Assembly (NCBI GenBank): GCA_937132085.1
Contig: CAKZNV010000133.1
Location: 1 to 51,721 of the forward strand
Direction: 5' to 3'
DNA: 51,721 bases
Origin: an uncultured Rubritalea sp.
GTDB lineage: Bacteria; Verrucomicrobiota; Verrucomicrobiia; Verrucomicrobiales; Akkermansiaceae
The notes beneath the pieces are model-generated. The model did no database searches. It was not told where the DNA came from and saw only the letters and a program-made list of their open reading frames with translations. Shown piece by piece: positions 146-8,390 of the stretch. A program made the translations under genes and the position numbers. The number at the start of each line of letters is the position of its first letter. The stretch's first letter is position 1.

Positions 146-1204
146 TTAAATGACAGCGATGTGCTGTAGATGTTTGATCGTTCTGTCGACTAGTGGTTTC
201 TTCATCAGTGCTATCTTACGCTCATTCCAAGATGCTGTTGAACTCCAGTTTTTAATAGCATGATAGACTTTTTCTAGGTCATAACTTTTCACTTCCTTCG
301 TTACGATCCAGTGGACTGTGGCAAGAAGTTCCATGCCAAATGGGGTTTCAAAACCGTCAATGAGGCGACTTAACGCAGGGAGTCTGTCGAGTGTTTCTGA
401 GTCTTCCTTTAAACAATCATCAGCTTCAGTAATTACACCATCGGTAAGAGCCAAGTTCATGTCAGATGTATCATGATCTCCCACTCCTTTGATGAAGTGT
501 CCATCAATTGCATTTAGAACATGTCTGAGGTTGTCAGCATAGGGGCCAAATTGATTCTTAGTGTAGTTTAACCTTAAAGGTTGTCCTAATTCTTGAGCGA
601 AATAACATAGTTTCTGAATCTCAATTTTACTCAGTGAATAGTTTAACTGACTATATGATTCAATGAGTTTCACAAGAACTGCTCTACCAGTGGTCATTTT
701 AGGACGCTTTGTTTTCACTACCATGTCCATGGCTTGAGGAGCTCCAGCGGGAGGGTAAATGTAGATGTTAATCTCTTCGCCAAGATCCTTCAGGTAATGC
801 TGCAATTTTTCAGAAATCATTTTCCACTCAAGCCCTCCATTACCACATCCCAGTGGAGGTATAGCGATAGATTTAATGTTATGCTGCTTGATCGTTTCGA
901 CGAGTGCGACTAAGCCGGCATCAATATATTCTATCTTAGATTTACTTCTCCAGTGATCTTTGGTGGGGAAGTTAATGATATAATGAGGCTTCTCAGCGAT
1001 CTGACCACGTTCGAATACATGCATCATACCTGGACGTAGCTTTTTTGCATCACATAGCTTCTTGTATTCTTTAAATGCAGTAGGCCATTTCTTTTTAAAC
1101 TGTAGAGCAATACCTTTACCCATCACACCAACGCAGTTCACTGTATTGACGAGTGCATCAACGTCTGCTTTAAGTAAGTCTCCTGATGTTATTTTAATGC
1201 TCAT
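146..1204 (-). CDS. darG: DarG: macro-domain DNA ADP-ribosylglycohydrolase antitoxin
   Basis: This is the antitoxin of a DarTG system. The N-terminal macro domain (about residues 1-155) removes ADP-ribose from thymidine in DNA. The C-terminal domain (about 160-352) resembles SocA/DUF4065-type modules and in known DarG proteins binds and blocks the toxin. Visible macro motifs are GDLLKADVDALVNTVNC near the start, INFPTKDHW, where Lys82 matches the catalytic lysine I recall from the Thermus DarG, and PPLGCGNGGL (116-125), the phosphate loop. The length of 352 residues is normal for two-domain DarG. It follows darT with only one base between the darT stop and this ATG, so the two are co-transcribed and probably translationally coupled. 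Assignment as antitoxin is firm from domain order plus partner. Confidence 0.93.
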   Translation of the reverse strand: MSIKITSGDLLKADVDALVNTVNCVGVMGKGIALQFKKKWPTAFKEYKKLCDAKKLRPGMMHVFERGQIAEKPHYIINFPTKDHWRSKSKIEYIDAGLVALVETIKQHNIKSIAIPPLGCGNGGLEWKMISEKLQHYLKDLGEEINIYIYPPAGAPQAMDMVVKTKRPKMTTGRAVLVKLIESYSQLNYSLSKIEIQKLCYFAQELGQPLRLNYTKNQFGPYADNLRHVLNAIDGHFIKGVGDHDTSDMNLALTDGVITEADDCLKEDSETLDRLPALSRLIDGFETPFGMELLATVHWIVTKEVKSYDLEKVYHAIKNWSSTASWNERKIALMKKPLVDRTIKHLQHIAVI

Positions 1205-1205
1205 G

Positions 1206-1880
1206 TTAATAATACCATTCTGGTTTAATCAATACCTTAAGCTCGCTACCATGTGCTTGTAAAGTAGCTTCTACTGCTTCTTTCATAGTCCTATTGCTTA
1301 CTGCGATTGTCTCAATAGCTTCGATGTCTAGTTGCTGATGAACTAAGAATTCAGCCTGCCTGACTTCCATTCTGTAGATCCATGTGGGATGTGCTGCATC
1401 AGAGCGGTCTTGCCAATATTTAGAAAATCCATCTAGTGTGGGAGGTTCGAAAAAGAGTGACCATTCGATCTCCTCTAGGTCTGATAGTTGATTAAAGCTC
1501 TGAGCGTGGGTTAAAATAGCATGGCGATCATAAAATAGATACTGGTGATTTGCAGCTACATTTTGAGCGGTTGTGCAGAGATAAATGATTTCCTCTTGTG
1601 GAGAAGCGTCTGCGTGAGTTCCTTTATAGTTGCAAAAAAGCATTGGCGAACGTGGAGCAAAATAGAAGGGAACGTAGTCGTGTAAATTTCCAGCTGGTGG
1701 CAGGGGAACTAGTGTTGCCGCACGTCTTCTCTGCACATCTTCATTCGCTATCGTATGTATTTTTTCCGCTTTGATTGCATTCTTGGGGTAGAGATTGCCG
1801 TCACTCAGGATAGATTCTAGGTTTCCCACATGCGTAATGTGAAATAGCTTGGTTCTTGTGAGCTGGTCAGTGGGTATCAT
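1206..1880 (-). CDS. darT: DarT: ssDNA thymidine ADP-ribosyltransferase toxin
   Basis: This is a DarT-family (DUF4433) toxin that uses NAD+ to attach ADP-ribose to thymidine bases of single-stranded DNA, stalling replication. Some homologues act in phage defence. Family marks are LFHITHVGNLESIL at the N terminus (His14 probably contacts NAD), an arginine cluster at 51-53, the signature YVPFYFAPRSPMLF (69-82), and AEFLV with Glu177 in the position of the catalytic glutamate. All expected key residues are present, so the toxin looks active. The 224-residue length is typical. It is the first gene of the darTG pair on the minus strand, with 182 bases upstream to the next gene. I could not define a clear promoter there. 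Confidence 0.94.
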   Translation of the reverse strand: MIPTDQLTRTKLFHITHVGNLESILSDGNLYPKNAIKAEKIHTIANEDVQRRRAATLVPLPPAGNLHDYVPFYFAPRSPMLFCNYKGTHADASPQEEIIYLCTTAQNVAANHQYLFYDRHAILTHAQSFNQLSDLEEIEWSLFFEPPTLDGFSKYWQDRSDAAHPTWIYRMEVRQAEFLVHQQLDIEAIETIAVSNRTMKEAVEATLQAHGSELKVLIKPEWYY

Positions 1881-3283: not shown

Positions 3284-3291
3284 TATTGCTC

Positions 3292-5790
3292 ATGGGCTGG
3301 AAGAAGTTTAACTCTCGAAGAAAAGTTCGCAAGAAATCATTATTTCTGCGGAAGTGGTTTTTGATGTTCTGTGGCACAGGTTTTTTGCTTCTCGTGATCG
3401 CTGTTTTGATCGCTTATTTCTGGTCGGCTAAATTTAGAGAACGTGCTAATAATAATACTCTGTATGATCTAGCTGATATTAACGAGATCGAGCAACCGAA
3501 TAAAATTTTAGATAGATCGAATAGAGAAGTAGGCAGAATTTTCTCTGAGAACCGAGATCCAGTTCCTGTGGAAGATGTTCCGCAAATTTTGATAGATACG
3601 TTGATTGCGGCGGAGGATGCAAGATTTTTCAGTCACGATGGTTATGATGTTAAAGGTATTGTCAGGGTGGCGAAGGAAGAGATATTCCAAGGTGGTAGTA
3701 AGTCTGGTGGAGCGTCGACTCTGACTCAGCAGCTAGCTCGAAATGCTTACCATCTGCAGGATGAGGCAAATCGTAGAGAGGAGAGCACGCATGAGCGCAA
3801 GGTGGTGGAAATCTTCCTAGCGATGAGAATCGAGGAAGAATATACGAAGCATGAAATCTTAGAATTCTACCTAAACAGGGTGAACTTTGGTGGCGGTTAT
3901 CACGGTATCCGTTCAGCTTCATTAGGTTATTTCGGTAAAGAGCCTAGAGATCTTGAGGTGCAGGAATGTGCGTCGCTAGTGGGGGCAATTCGTAACCCAG
4001 CTGTCTTTTCTCCAACAAGATTTAACAAGAATGAGAAGGGTGAGCGAGAGCAAGGTTATCAGAATATGCAGGTGAGAAACCGAGTTCTTTATAGAATGTC
4101 TGTCGAGGGTATGATCACTGAGGCTGAAGCTGCTGAATATCAAAAGAGGCCATTGGGGCTGAATCCTAAGCCTATTCAGCGAGGAACTTCACATTTTCAT
4201 GATCGTGTGGATGAGAAATTCAAGGAATTGCTGAAAGATAACAATATAAGTGAGTCGGATTTAGCGAAAGGTGGATTTAAAATCTTTACCAGTATTGATA
4301 AAGATATTCAGGATAAGCTGGAGAGTAAGATCAGAGAAAATCTAGCGAGAGTAGAATCCAGAGAGGGCTACGCTCATGCTAAGAAGCGAGACTACGTGCG
4401 CACAGAAGACAGTGTGCCAAAGTATTTGCAAGGTGCTGGAATGATGATAGATCACCATACAGGGGAGATCCTTGCCTACGTAGGTGGTAGAGATTTCACG
4501 GATTCACAGTATGACTTTATTCAGTCAGGTAAGAAGCCATTAGGGACTGCGTTTTTCCCCTTTATCTATGCATCTGCTTTAGAAAATGGCATGAATAGCT
4601 CGGAGAAATTGATCGATGAAGCAATGGATAACCGCCGCGTGATGATCAATGGTGTGGAAGGTGTGCTCGGAGAATGGGGCAATGAAGTGCTAGATCCACG
4701 CTATGAAGGAAGTATATCAATGCGCCGAGCTTTGGCTGCCTCTAAAATAGCGGCAACTGTGCGCCTCGGACGTAAAGTGGGCTTAGATAAAATTTGGAAA
4801 ACAGCTGAGAAGTTTGGTTTTGAAAGACCGAAAGGGAGATTGCTCAATAAGACCTTACTTGGTGCTGAGGAGGCTTCGCTGGAAACGGTCGTCCGTGCTT
4901 ATGGAGTGTTCGCTGAGCAAGGAATGGAACAGAAGGAATTAGTGTGGATTACTAGGATTGAGGATGCTGATGGGAATGAAGTTTATAAATGGGAAGGCAA
5001 AGGGAAAACTGAACAAGTGATTGATCAATCAAGCGCATTTCTAGTGCATACAATGCTGGAAGACGCTCTAAAAACCGGTAGCGGGATGTCTCTGTATGAA
5101 GGAAAAGGGAAGAGTTTATTAGGTGATTTTTCAGGCGCTGGTAAGACTGGCACAACGAGTGATTTTAGTAATCATTGGTTCGCTGGGTATAATGATCGAG
5201 TAACTTGTGCTCTCTGGACTGGTTTTTATGAAGGGTCACTGACCGAAATTTACCCTGAGGCATTTAGTAAAGACACGATTATGCCAGCGTGGATAGATAC
5301 GATGGCAGTAGCTCAGAAGAAGTTTGGTGATGATAAGATTGCGATGCCTAAGGATATTGTGAAACTCAGGATTTGTAAGCATTCAGGTAAGCTAGAGACT
5401 AAGTCGTGTGAGGAGTTTAAGCACAATCTGGTGACTGGAGAGAAGAGTTATGTAAGCACTGGCTACGATGAGTATTTTCAGAGATCAAAGCGTCCTAGAG
5501 GCTCATGCCCTGTGCATGGAGCGAGTTTAGGCAATTTTCATGACATTGATTTTGGTTCTGGTATGACAGCGATGGAGAGGTTGAATACAGTGCCGATTAA
5601 GCCTCAGGAGCCAACACTTATCGGAGAAGATCCTTATAAATCCGAGGCGCCAGTTTACGCTCCGCAGGAGAAAAATCTATACATGGTCGGACGAGGCCTA
5701 AATTCGTTGGATTTCGATAATTTAGCCGAAGAAAATAAGTCAGCTGAGATAGCGATCCCTGAGCTAGGGCGTCTTGATATTACCGAATAG
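3292..5790 (+). CDS. Class A penicillin-binding protein, GT51 transglycosylase with a degenerate transpeptidase site
   Basis: Bitopic peptidoglycan synthase: a basic cytoplasmic start, one membrane helix (about residues 24-44), a GT51 glycosyltransferase domain (about 75-265) and a penicillin-binding domain (about 375-680). The GT51 domain is intact: Glu108 in AAEDARFF, GASTLTQQLARN and EFYLNRVNFGGG. The transpeptidase domain is not. Where the family has SxxK there is Thr419-Ala-Phe-Phe422 (PLGTAFFPFIY), and SxN reads Ser484-Lys-Ile486. Lys618-Thr-Gly-Thr is retained. I read these codons directly. Inference: it polymerises glycan but may not crosslink. The C-terminal tail holds four cysteines (ICKHSGKLETKSC and GSC). 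The ATG at 3292 is chosen over a TTG two codons earlier. Divergent from the MidA-like gene. Confidence 0.9.
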   Translation: MGWKKFNSRRKVRKKSLFLRKWFLMFCGTGFLLLVIAVLIAYFWSAKFRERANNNTLYDLADINEIEQPNKILDRSNREVGRIFSENRDPVPVEDVPQILIDTLIAAEDARFFSHDGYDVKGIVRVAKEEIFQGGSKSGGASTLTQQLARNAYHLQDEANRREESTHERKVVEIFLAMRIEEEYTKHEILEFYLNRVNFGGGYHGIRSASLGYFGKEPRDLEVQECASLVGAIRNPAVFSPTRFNKNEKGEREQGYQNMQVRNRVLYRMSVEGMITEAEAAEYQKRPLGLNPKPIQRGTSHFHDRVDEKFKELLKDNNISESDLAKGGFKIFTSIDKDIQDKLESKIRENLARVESREGYAHAKKRDYVRTEDSVPKYLQGAGMMIDHHTGEILAYVGGRDFTDSQYDFIQSGKKPLGTAFFPFIYASALENGMNSSEKLIDEAMDNRRVMINGVEGVLGEWGNEVLDPRYEGSISMRRALAASKIAATVRLGRKVGLDKIWKTAEKFGFERPKGRLLNKTLLGAEEASLETVVRAYGVFAEQGMEQKELVWITRIEDADGNEVYKWEGKGKTEQVIDQSSAFLVHTMLEDALKTGSGMSLYEGKGKSLLGDFSGAGKTGTTSDFSNHWFAGYNDRVTCALWTGFYEGSLTEIYPEAFSKDTIMPAWIDTMAVAQKKFGDDKIAMPKDIVKLRICKHSGKLETKSCEEFKHNLVTGEKSYVSTGYDEYFQRSKRPRGSCPVHGASLGNFHDIDFGSGMTAMERLNTVPIKPQEPTLIGEDPYKSEAPVYAPQEKNLYMVGRGLNSLDFDNLAEENKSAEIAIPELGRLDITE

Positions 5791-5855: not shown

Positions 5856-6956
5856 GTGAACACTGACTCTATTTCGACATCTCCAGAACAGAAGGAAGGC
5901 TATATTTGTCCTAGTTGTAGGTTACTATTCTCTATTATTCCGAATGTGGGTGGTAATGGAGTGGTTTGTCCAGGTTGCTCAAAGTTGCTGACTGTCCCTT
6001 CTCCAGAAGATGGTGTGGCTTCTCAAGAAACTAGCCAAGTGAGATATAAGCAGGCAGGTCTCGCGTCTGTTGATAAATTAGAAGATGCGTATCGCCGTGA
6101 GCGTCAGTGGGAGCAGCAGAGACATCAACAAATGGAGGAAATCGAGACCCAAGATAAGGAGCTTCGATGGATGGTTCCATTGGCTTTGATCGCAATAGTG
6201 CTTCTAGGTGGTCTGGGCTATGTATTGGTGAATTCCTCCCAGAATAAGCCAATAGTAGCTTCATCGCAAGATGTAGACACACAAGATTCAATCGATGAAG
6301 CTAGAGGTTTTGGCCACAGTAACCCTGAAGACCGTAAGAAACTTGAGAATTTCTTAGAGAAGTTCTTAGCTGCTGAATCTGTTGATGATCTAATTCCGTA
6401 TGTTGTTAATGTTGAGAGTTTAAGAGAGAAAATGATTGCTTATTATGGCGGTGAGAAAATCAAGCAATCAAAATTAATTGAAGCCAAGCAAACTGGTGAT
6501 CTAGGTCTCCATCCAGGGTATATAATCACTACTTTTGAAGATCAAGATTTCAAAATGCAGAGAGCATTAATCAAATATGATGATGGTGCATTTAAATTAG
6601 ATTGGGAGAGCTATGTTGGCTATTCAGAAATCAGTTGGGAGGAAATGAAGAGGCTTAAGCCTGTTCAGCCGTTTACGATGAGAGTCGTCCTTTCAGTTAA
6701 AGATTTCTATCTTTATGATTTTAGTGACGAGAAGCTGTGGCAGTCTGTCTCTCTGACTAATCCTAACGTAGATGTAACAATGTATGGCTATGTGAAAAGA
6801 GGATCTGCTGTGGAGCAACTGGTGTCTAACTTCGGGATGACAACTGCTAATTACTATCTAACTGTGAAAGCGAGATATCCTGAGAATGCTACACGTGATG
6901 ATCAGTTTGAGATCGTTGAGGTCATCAGTAACTCTTGGCTCGTAGAGGAAAAATAA
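5856..6956 (+). CDS. Zinc-ribbon, single-pass membrane protein of unknown function (paralogue A)
   Basis: Function unknown. A zinc-ribbon-like knuckle pair, C18-x2-C21 and C38-x2-C41, opens the protein. A charged, glutamine-rich segment follows (about 75-104), then one membrane helix (105-126, WMVPLALIAIVLLGGLGYV) and a soluble extracytoplasmic domain of about 240 residues. The start is GTG at 5856. No Shine-Dalgarno sequence is evident. It lies 65 bases after the penicillin-binding protein gene and may share its transcript. The protein at 45476-46576 has the same length (366) and layout, and related motifs such as a DW..V....E..W block before a long beta-rich end, so the two are probably paralogues. 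No enzymatic motif was seen. Confidence 0.8.
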   Translation: MNTDSISTSPEQKEGYICPSCRLLFSIIPNVGGNGVVCPGCSKLLTVPSPEDGVASQETSQVRYKQAGLASVDKLEDAYRRERQWEQQRHQQMEEIETQDKELRWMVPLALIAIVLLGGLGYVLVNSSQNKPIVASSQDVDTQDSIDEARGFGHSNPEDRKKLENFLEKFLAAESVDDLIPYVVNVESLREKMIAYYGGEKIKQSKLIEAKQTGDLGLHPGYIITTFEDQDFKMQRALIKYDDGAFKLDWESYVGYSEISWEEMKRLKPVQPFTMRVVLSVKDFYLYDFSDEKLWQSVSLTNPNVDVTMYGYVKRGSAVEQLVSNFGMTTANYYLTVKARYPENATRDDQFEIVEVISNSWLVEEK

Positions 6957-6998
6957 GACCTCACTGACTAACCCACAATTTAACAATTTTTTTAAGTA

Positions 6999-8390
6999 AT
7001 GATAAGTGATAAAGAAGCAAAGAGCACGTATGATAAAGTGCTTAGAATCAATCTAGATGATGCTAAGTATGGAACATTCGCTGAAATAGGGGCTGGGCAA
7101 GGAGTCGCAGAATGGTTTTTCAAGGCCTCTGCATCTGCGGGCACTGTAGCGAAGACTATCTCGGCGTATGACATGACGATGAGTGATGAGATCTACGGCA
7201 AATGCAGCCGTTATGTCTCAAGGGAACGAGTTCTCTCAATGTTAGATCACGAATACTCACTTCTAGAAGAACGTCTATCTGAGCAGAGGGGGGATAGTTC
7301 TACTTTTTTCTCATACTGTAATACTGTTAGAGCGAGAGGGTATAAAGATACTGGAGAGTGTCACGGCTGGATGGGTGTAAGGCTTCAGCTTAGGCCGAAT
7401 GAAGAACCTTGTGATATTCTGTGCCACGTGCGTCTGTTAGATAAAGAAAATGTAGACCAAATGGATGCTCTTGGAACATTCGGTGTGAATTTTATTCATG
7501 CCGCGTTCTATCATAGAGATAACTTAGAGAACTTCGTGAATTCGCTGATGGATGGGATTCACTCAGAAAGCGTAGAAGTGGATATGCTCAAGTTCTTAGG
7601 TAAAGGCTTTAGGTTTGTAGATAACCGTTTGTGCTCACTACAGCTAGTTCAGAGCGGTCTAACAGATGCGGCAATGTTCATGCCAGATGGCGAAGTAGTG
7701 CAACCAGCAGAAGTTCTCTATAAACGCCCGATTGCTTTGCTCAGAGGTAGCTTTGAGCCAGTAACTAATCTGCATCTGGATATGATGGAGCAGACTAAAA
7801 AAGAGTTCTATAAGCATCTAGATGAAGTGCAGCAAGGTCGCTATATCGGGATTTGTGAGATCTCTATGAATAACCTGCTTCGTGGAAACTTAGTGGATCA
7901 CCTTGAGTTTCTAGACAGAGCTGATGCGCTTCAGGCATTAGGAAAAACAGTGCTTATTTCACGTTGCCCAGAGTTCCACCGAATCGCTACCTACCTGAAT
8001 CGCTACACTAATCAACCGATTGCGATCTCACTGAGTATAGGACTTCTTAACGAATTATTTAAAGAGAAGTGGTCTGAGAACCTGGCTGGTGGAATTTTAG
8101 AATCTTTTGGAAGGTTGTTTAAAAATGAACTTAGCCTCTATGTTTATCCATGGAAAAATAGGCAGACAGAAGAATCAGTAACAGGGAAGACATTTAAAGT
8201 AGCTGATGATCTACAGCATCTCTACCAGTATTTCCTTCATAATGAAATGATCTGTGATGTGGAATGTGGTGATGAAGAATTACTCAGATACACAGGACGA
8301 GATATTCAGAAAATGATCAAGAATGGTGATGCTAACTGGAAAAACTATGTTCCTGCTGTGGCTCATAAAGCAGCTCTCCACATCCAATAA
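6999..8390 (+). CDS. Conserved protein of unknown function (463 aa), paired with argA
   Basis: I recognise a widely conserved bacterial family by its N-terminal block, with GTFAEIGAGQGVAEWFF, GTVAKTISAYDMTMSD and RYVSRERVLSMLDHEY. Members carry inconsistent automatic names and, as far as I know, no established function. No signal peptide or membrane helix is seen, so it is probably cytoplasmic. A second conserved region, GTFGVNFIHAAF, lies mid-protein, and the C-terminal half has no motif that I can tie to a reaction. It ends six bases before the N-acetylglutamate synthase gene, which suggests one transcript and perhaps a link to arginine or nucleotide metabolism (inference only). The leader is T/A-rich without a Shine-Dalgarno sequence. 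Confidence 0.82.
   Translation: MISDKEAKSTYDKVLRINLDDAKYGTFAEIGAGQGVAEWFFKASASAGTVAKTISAYDMTMSDEIYGKCSRYVSRERVLSMLDHEYSLLEERLSEQRGDSSTFFSYCNTVRARGYKDTGECHGWMGVRLQLRPNEEPCDILCHVRLLDKENVDQMDALGTFGVNFIHAAFYHRDNLENFVNSLMDGIHSESVEVDMLKFLGKGFRFVDNRLCSLQLVQSGLTDAAMFMPDGEVVQPAEVLYKRPIALLRGSFEPVTNLHLDMMEQTKKEFYKHLDEVQQGRYIGICEISMNNLLRGNLVDHLEFLDRADALQALGKTVLISRCPEFHRIATYLNRYTNQPIAISLSIGLLNELFKEKWSENLAGGILESFGRLFKNELSLYVYPWKNRQTEESVTGKTFKVADDLQHLYQYFLHNEMICDVECGDEELLRYTGRDIQKMIKNGDANWKNYVPAVAHKAALHIQ

Follow-up and report, generated by a model that had tools for sequence, protein, structure and literature searches.

The class A penicillin-binding protein (PBP) encoded at 3292-5790 of the window, the whole stretch of 51,721 nucleotides analysed here from an uncultured Rubritalea sp., is probably a GT51 polymerase that carries a conserved, non-acylating pseudo-transpeptidase module, with its strands cross-linked by other enzymes. 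Judged from the sequences of its relatives, the loss of transpeptidase (TP) residues is a selected one, fixed in the sample of its own family and set inside a class-wide subfamily with a signature of its own. We propose that the GT51 domain polymerises lipid II, and that the pseudo-TP domain, having lost the residues for acylation, would serve as a folded non-catalytic module which positions or regulates the glycosyltransferase (GT) domain or acts as a binding site for nascent stem peptides or for partner proteins, the subfamily-specific GEWGxE element being the probable means. Cross-linking could then fall to an intact PBP1A paralogue, to class B PBPs paired with SEDS proteins, or to L,D-transpeptidases.

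The frame is uninterrupted from its first possible start to its stop, and residues are numbered from the ATG at 3292 (Table 1). It has the class A layout of a GT51 domain followed by a PF00905 domain on a single chain, both scoring above the Pfam cut-offs (PF00912, E 1.6e-52, 177.9 bits; PF00905, E 1.4e-15, 57.7 bits), and the predicted N-terminal helix is taken to include the membrane anchor. The GT51 site is intact, as the earlier note had held: Glu108 lies in EDARFFSHDG and Glu173 in RKVVE, and both residues, which we take to be catalytic, occur in 137 of 137 subfamily rows.

Table 1 Features of the PBP gene and its neighbours (window positions).
Feature	Position	Strand	Basis
Divergent neighbour, SAM-dependent methyltransferase PF02636	2063..3283	-	
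Class A PBP ORF, 834 aa (TTG start, 3286) or 832 aa (ATG start, 3292)	3286..5790	+	Pfam PF00912, PF00905
Long N-terminal helix, residues 9-53, predicted	3316..3450	+	AlphaFold2 model
GT51 glycosyltransferase domain, Glu108 (3613-3615) and Glu173 (3808-3810) intact	3529..4065	+	Pfam
Transpeptidase-like (TP) domain without SxxK and SxN residues	4435..5193	+	PF00905 match, PBP fold match
Motif 1 site GTAFFPF, Ser replaced by Thr419 and Lys by Phe422	4543..4563	+	
Subfamily signature LGEWGNE, Glu461 and Glu465, between motifs 1 and 2	4666..4686	+	
Motif 2 site Ser484-Lys-Ile486 where Ser-x-Asn is expected	4741..4749	+	
Motif 3 Lys618-Thr-Gly-Thr (618-621), intact	5143..5154	+	
Downstream protein, zinc-ribbon-like N-terminus (by eye), no Pfam match	5856..6956	+	

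The TP domain has T-A-F-F at the site aligned with S-x-x-K and S-K-I at that of S-x-N, and it retains K-T-G as KTGT, a motif that varies across the family. These are the residues that the earlier note had read (T419-A-F-F422, S484-K-I486, K618-T-G-T), and the reading is borne out by the codons (Thr419 is ACT at 4546-4548, Phe422 TTC at 4555-4557; Ser484 occupies 4741-4743, Ile486 4747-4749 and Lys618 5143-5145) as well as by a structure-anchored alignment. When the family profile was aligned by HMMER to the PBP1A structures 4oon and 5u2g, GTAFFPF fell opposite GSSFKPF (4oon) or GSSIKPF, SKI opposite SRN (4oon) or SKN, and GKTGTT opposite GKTGTT, so the motifs are not misplaced relative to solved class A PBPs. 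An SxxK elsewhere in the domain, named beforehand as a finding that would overturn the claim, was looked for and rejected, since the only other strings of this form, SGKK at residue 412 and SSEK at residue 436, are not conserved (Ser and Lys occur jointly in 8 and 1 of the 48 rows of A2, respectively). No S-x-N string occurs anywhere in the TP domain of this protein.

The same losses run through the family. Here family f1 is the family of the genome database, presumably its Akkermansiaceae, and not that of NCBI, which assigns Rubritalea to Rubritaleaceae. Orthologues with T-x-x-[F/L] and S-K-[I/V] were found in all 12 genus genomes searched, one of them (L024) ending at a contig edge ahead of the GT site, which argues for more than chance or assembly error; a frameshift is likewise disfavoured by open frames in 12/12. 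Among the 143 f1 frames tabulated (91 frames come from coded genomes, 89 in number and spread over 12 genera, and 52 from named records, with identical frames merged, although one genome may still stand in both sources, and with family genera g4, g5, g6 and g15 outside the count), every one has Thr at the nucleophile position and none has the Lys or the Asn. The Lys position is filled by Phe (87), Leu (47), Tyr (6) or His (3) and the Asn position by Ile (128), Val (12) or Leu (3), whereas motif 3 reads KTG in 71 frames, KGG in 51, KSG in 17, KPG in three and YNG in one. The absence of the Ser/Lys pair and of the Asn is therefore common to all family frames tabulated, and the alignment proposed as a check of conservation agrees in 143 of 143 frames; the description of KTG as kept fits this protein and fails for the family, where just 71 of 143 frames have it. 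As a whole, the earlier interpretation is partly supported. Three records titled Akkermansia muciniphila, titles that may be wrong (L122, L145, L168), read GTAFFPY or GTAFFPF at motif 1, unlike the GTA[I/V/L]LP pattern seen in genus g3.

Whole-genome searches covered samples of the phylum to which the genome belongs. In the family sample, 194 of 195 genomes gave a match at 1e-60, six of these being no better than the canonical paralogue; for seven of the 195 (G025, G038, G067, G092, G105, G129 and G144) no match rose above the level expected of a canonical paralogue, and the orthologue may be absent from these genomes or unassembled. Matches at 1e-50 were obtained in 141/141 genomes of the order sample and 56/141 of the class sample, and matches at 1e-60 in 26/194 of the phylum sample, all 26 from the same class; canonical paralogues may be included in these counts.

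Despite its missing residues, the TP-like domain experiences purifying selection of the same strength as the GT domain. The median Ka/Ks in family f1 was 0.075 for TP (maximum 0.148) and 0.084 for GT, with the TP value the higher in 13 of 21 pairs (Wilcoxon p 0.81); these are simple counting estimates at a synonymous difference of at most 0.6, for which 38 close pairs of distinct proteins were chosen, each protein entering one pair, and 21 proved usable. Pairwise identity in the TP domain averaged 0.47 in f1, 0.50 in the other subfamily members and 0.46 in 12 canonical paralogues, and in the GT domain 0.57, 0.51 and 0.48, respectively. An AlphaFold2 model (mean pLDDT 82, most TP blocks around 90) matched the PonA1 TP domain over 346 residues (Z 40.9, 2.9 A) and Acinetobacter baumannii PBP1a over 490 residues (Z 45, 5.2 A), and a Foldseek search likewise matched PBPs. 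The domain is thus predicted to retain the PBP fold, which by itself is no proof of function. Retained length and fold, as the earlier note had described them, hold in the prediction and are accompanied by selection; with its catalytic residues lost as well, the domain shows the pattern expected of a pseudo-enzyme.

It is very unlikely, on this evidence, that the TP domain is a vanishing relic that persists solely through the need for the GT domain. The losses of Lys and Asn and the drift of KTG would fit such relaxed decay; however, neutral decay is disfavoured by a Ka/Ks that is equally low in the TP and GT domains, and length, predicted fold and subfamily signature are all maintained. What decay looks like is illustrated by a second, shorter class A paralogue in the same genome (G000:C224:5407-6513; L003, L316), a 563-aa open frame that adjoins the canonical PBP1A gene and has SAYY at motif 1 and neither motif 2 nor motif 3. 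Across eight genomes and G017, its motif 1 is without Lys in 9/9 rows, with Ser in the Rubritalea genome only, and all nine aligned rows show a deletion of motif 2 and no motif 3. It stands beside the canonical gene in L308, L309, L310, L316 and L261; the tandem with canonical PBP1A occurs in Rubritalea and in genus g7, while stretches from four g3 genomes (L311-L314) contain the short gene without a canonical neighbour. Like the PBP at 3292-5790, this paralogue joins a GT51 domain to a TP part without motifs, but it branches with the canonical proteins, is shorter, and has lost motifs 2 and 3 outright. The eight f1 genomes examined for both proteins encode three or four GT51 proteins each, and two of these are without TP residues.

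Outside family f1, the losses are a graded erosion in the aligned sequences of the wider class. For this comparison, f1 was represented by 54 rows (representatives under 68% identity plus three extra Rubritalea rows), used for alignment and tree, and the rest of the subfamily by 83 class relatives; frames under 500 aa and identical proteins were excluded, among them L129 (GTAFFPF and SKI) and L074 (GTGVFPF, SKI and GEWGSE), and L232, L262 and L304 were merged with near-identical rows. The 83 relatives have Thr (79) or Ser (4) as nucleophile, the Lys position holds Thr in 36, Lys in 23, Leu in 12, Met in five, Ile in three, Ala in two and Gln or Phe in one each, and the motif-2 Asn is retained in 72. 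In all 12 canonical paralogues from this class, SxxK, SxN and KTG are present. One subfamily member, L307, has Ser but Leu at the Lys position, and members from genus g28 of family f2 (L231, L268, L269) have the complete SxxK/SxN/KTG set. L266, a Thr-bearing second copy in G197 that is not among the 83 rows, reads GTAFLPL, GKT and WGG and has GEWGGE.

Since Thr replaces Ser across most of the class-wide subfamily, relatives exist that have Thr yet keep Lys, Asn and KTG. Rows with both T-x-x-K and S-x-N number 17 of 148 and come from several families, and in those relatives threonine may therefore pass through a stage in which it works as nucleophile. That Thr419 of the Rubritalea protein still acylates, making the subfamily a slow or specialised cross-linker, is a reading for which we see hardly any chance, because Lys and Asn are absent from 143/143 f1 frames. 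As an argument against a purely non-acylating module, the conserved Thr together with KTG could in principle bind a ligand or acylate slowly.

These changes were counted on a tree. In a second tree, with motif columns removed and L259 and L266 omitted, 136 subfamily rows were split from 12 canonical rows (SH-aLRT 98) and the neighbour family f6 (three rows) joined f1 at 94; three changes were needed for the nucleophile, 12 for Lys/not-Lys and seven for Asn/not-Asn. The simplest order suggested by these counts is an early change of Ser to Thr, several losses of Lys, and loss of Asn in f1 with f6 as well as in scattered relatives. The first tree had put the Thr-bearing long branches L258, L259 and L266 on the canonical side (SH-aLRT 92), whereas L258 groups with the subfamily in the second. 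For the Ser-bearing g28, the three S/T changes on the tree fit a reversion, but an AU test did not reject its grouping with the canonical proteins (p 0.374), and its complete motif set would be either retained or regained. A coordinated refilling of the pocket at the Lys and Asn positions was considered and is not established: a hydrophobic residue at the Lys position and loss of Asn occur together in 62 rows, the first alone in 12, the second alone in three and neither in 71, but independent pairs gave no significant association (median p 0.25). The pairing of Thr at the Lys site with Gly at the motif-2 Ser was not significant either (independent pairs, median p 1).

What the subfamily has gained lies between motifs 1 and 2, where a stretch resembling DN..VM.GG..GILGEWGxE is found across its members. 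The element GEW[G/A]xE is present in 52/54 f1 rows and 78/83 other subfamily rows against 0/12 canonical rows, and the seven subfamily rows without it still have E-[W/Y]-G-x-E. Glu461 and Glu465 are each found in 137 of 137 subfamily rows, whereas among the 12 canonical rows Glu is missing at 461 throughout and occurs at 465 in a single row. The Trp between the two glutamates also stands at that place in 9/12 canonical rows, and we take it to be the Trp that lines the active-site cleft of other PBPs. Both halves of the subfamily conserve 39 TP columns, of which 11 are subfamily-specific. Since Lys-bearing subfamily relatives also have GEWGxE, the element is not a consequence of Lys loss, and the pattern points to a positive function and not to simple loss.

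A bolder reading holds that the old active site was repurposed, with Thr419, Glu461, Glu465 and Lys618 forming a new ligand-binding or catalytic centre that makes the domain an enzyme or sensor of a different kind. The retention of Thr419 in 133/137 subfamily rows while Lys and often Asn were lost speaks for it, as do the invariant glutamates and the 11 subfamily-specific columns among the 39. However, the nearness of Glu461 and Glu465 to Thr419 is hypothetical, as the GEWGxE loop is of low confidence in the model (block means pLDDT 61 and 57), the Thr could serve packing or helix capping, and KTG is variable in family f1; we therefore regard such a centre as unlikely. A related proposal, which we put forward tentatively and rate as improbable, is that the Verrucomicrobiia subfamily was re-engineered class-wide at its origin, changing Ser to Thr, gaining GEWGxE and shedding the old residues stepwise, and that Thr419, Glu461 and Glu465 would form a site for a non-penicillin ligand or for catalysis which controls glycan polymerisation or couples to it.

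In its genomic setting, a relative of the PF02636 methyltransferase gene adjoins the PBP gene in 76 of 80 named loci, an arrangement in favour of orthology. The protein encoded at 5856-6956 has a relative in 31/80 named loci, although some of these sequences stop before the place where one would lie. It belongs to a pair of downstream proteins in 5856-8390 (+), neither with a Pfam match, which were found in 31/80 and 30/80 loci; the 463-aa one is well conserved, at 57-81% identity where found. Upstream of the PBP region, at 146-1880 (-), a DarT-like ADP-ribosyltransferase (PF14487, E 7.2e-53) beside a macro-domain protein (PF01661) resembles a DarTG-type toxin-antitoxin or phage-defence pair.

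Under the preferred reading of a GT51 polymerase with a pseudo-TP module, cross-linking would depend on other proteins, and the genome encodes candidates. An intact second class A PBP, looked for as the earlier note had advised, is there: among four GT51 proteins, the one at 3292-5790 included, a canonical PBP1A (C224:3397; 521.4 bits against the NCBIfam cut-off of 508.75) has SVFK, SRN and KTG, and a PBP1C-like gene at two contig ends has SVLK, SLN and KTG. The genome also encodes three class B-type PF00905 proteins with all three motifs complete, two SEDS (FtsW/RodA) proteins and ten YkuD (L,D-transpeptidase-like) matches above cut-off in ten places. With these predicted cross-linking enzymes elsewhere in the genome, cross-linking capacity need not rely on the PBP at 3292-5790.

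Among known families, the best NCBIfam match is the PBP1A family TIGR02074, with which the protein shares domain order, GT51 motifs and TP fold. However, its score of 419.1 lies under the cut-off of 508.75, the catalytic Ser, Lys and Asn are gone, and GEWGxE replaces the W-x-P-x-N-like stretch of canonical PBP1A paralogues. It also falls under the cut-offs of PBP1C (TIGR02073; 254.4 against 494.2) and of the monofunctional MtgA-type GT51 family (TIGR02070; 100.6 against 182.65); a polymerase-only function would be common ground with the latter, from which the attached TP-like domain sets it apart.

Precedents for a PBP acting without its own catalysis are mutants. The E. coli PBP1b variant S510A reportedly polymerises lipid II while being devoid of TP activity, and it supported YcbB-mediated resistance (PMC5089857), in which cross-linking is L,D-transpeptidase-based; the likeness is that GT activity without TP activity is tolerated when another enzyme cross-links, whereas S510A is one engineered change and the natural protein is also without Lys and Asn. 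An inactive PBP2B mutant sustains division in B. subtilis, PBP3 then being essential (PMC5656894), and C. difficile PBP3 functions without its own catalysis (PMC12539705). Both resemble the present case in that a PBP matters without catalysis, but they are class B proteins studied as mutants, while the protein at 3292-5790 is naturally without the residues. PMC12539705 also describes the TP activity of the class A PBP1 of C. difficile as strictly needed for growth, an analogy that would point in the opposite direction and, with the mutant nature of the precedents, would weigh against a pseudo-TP. Among top-ranked titles and abstract beginnings in the open PMC literature, we found no description of a natural TP-dead class A PBP in Verrucomicrobiota.

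Class A PBPs are usually read as bifunctional, as a polymerase plus a penicillin-sensitive cross-linker, and a survey places Akkermansia in the classic pathway because an aPBP is retained (PMC8406291). Class A PBPs with a dead TP domain would alter the predicted beta-lactam targets and the coupling of polymerisation to cross-linking in this lineage. The living series from TxxK through TxxT to TxxF/L, with a few relatives that have the complete motifs, would constitute a natural experiment on the non-catalytic role of a TP domain for its GT partner.
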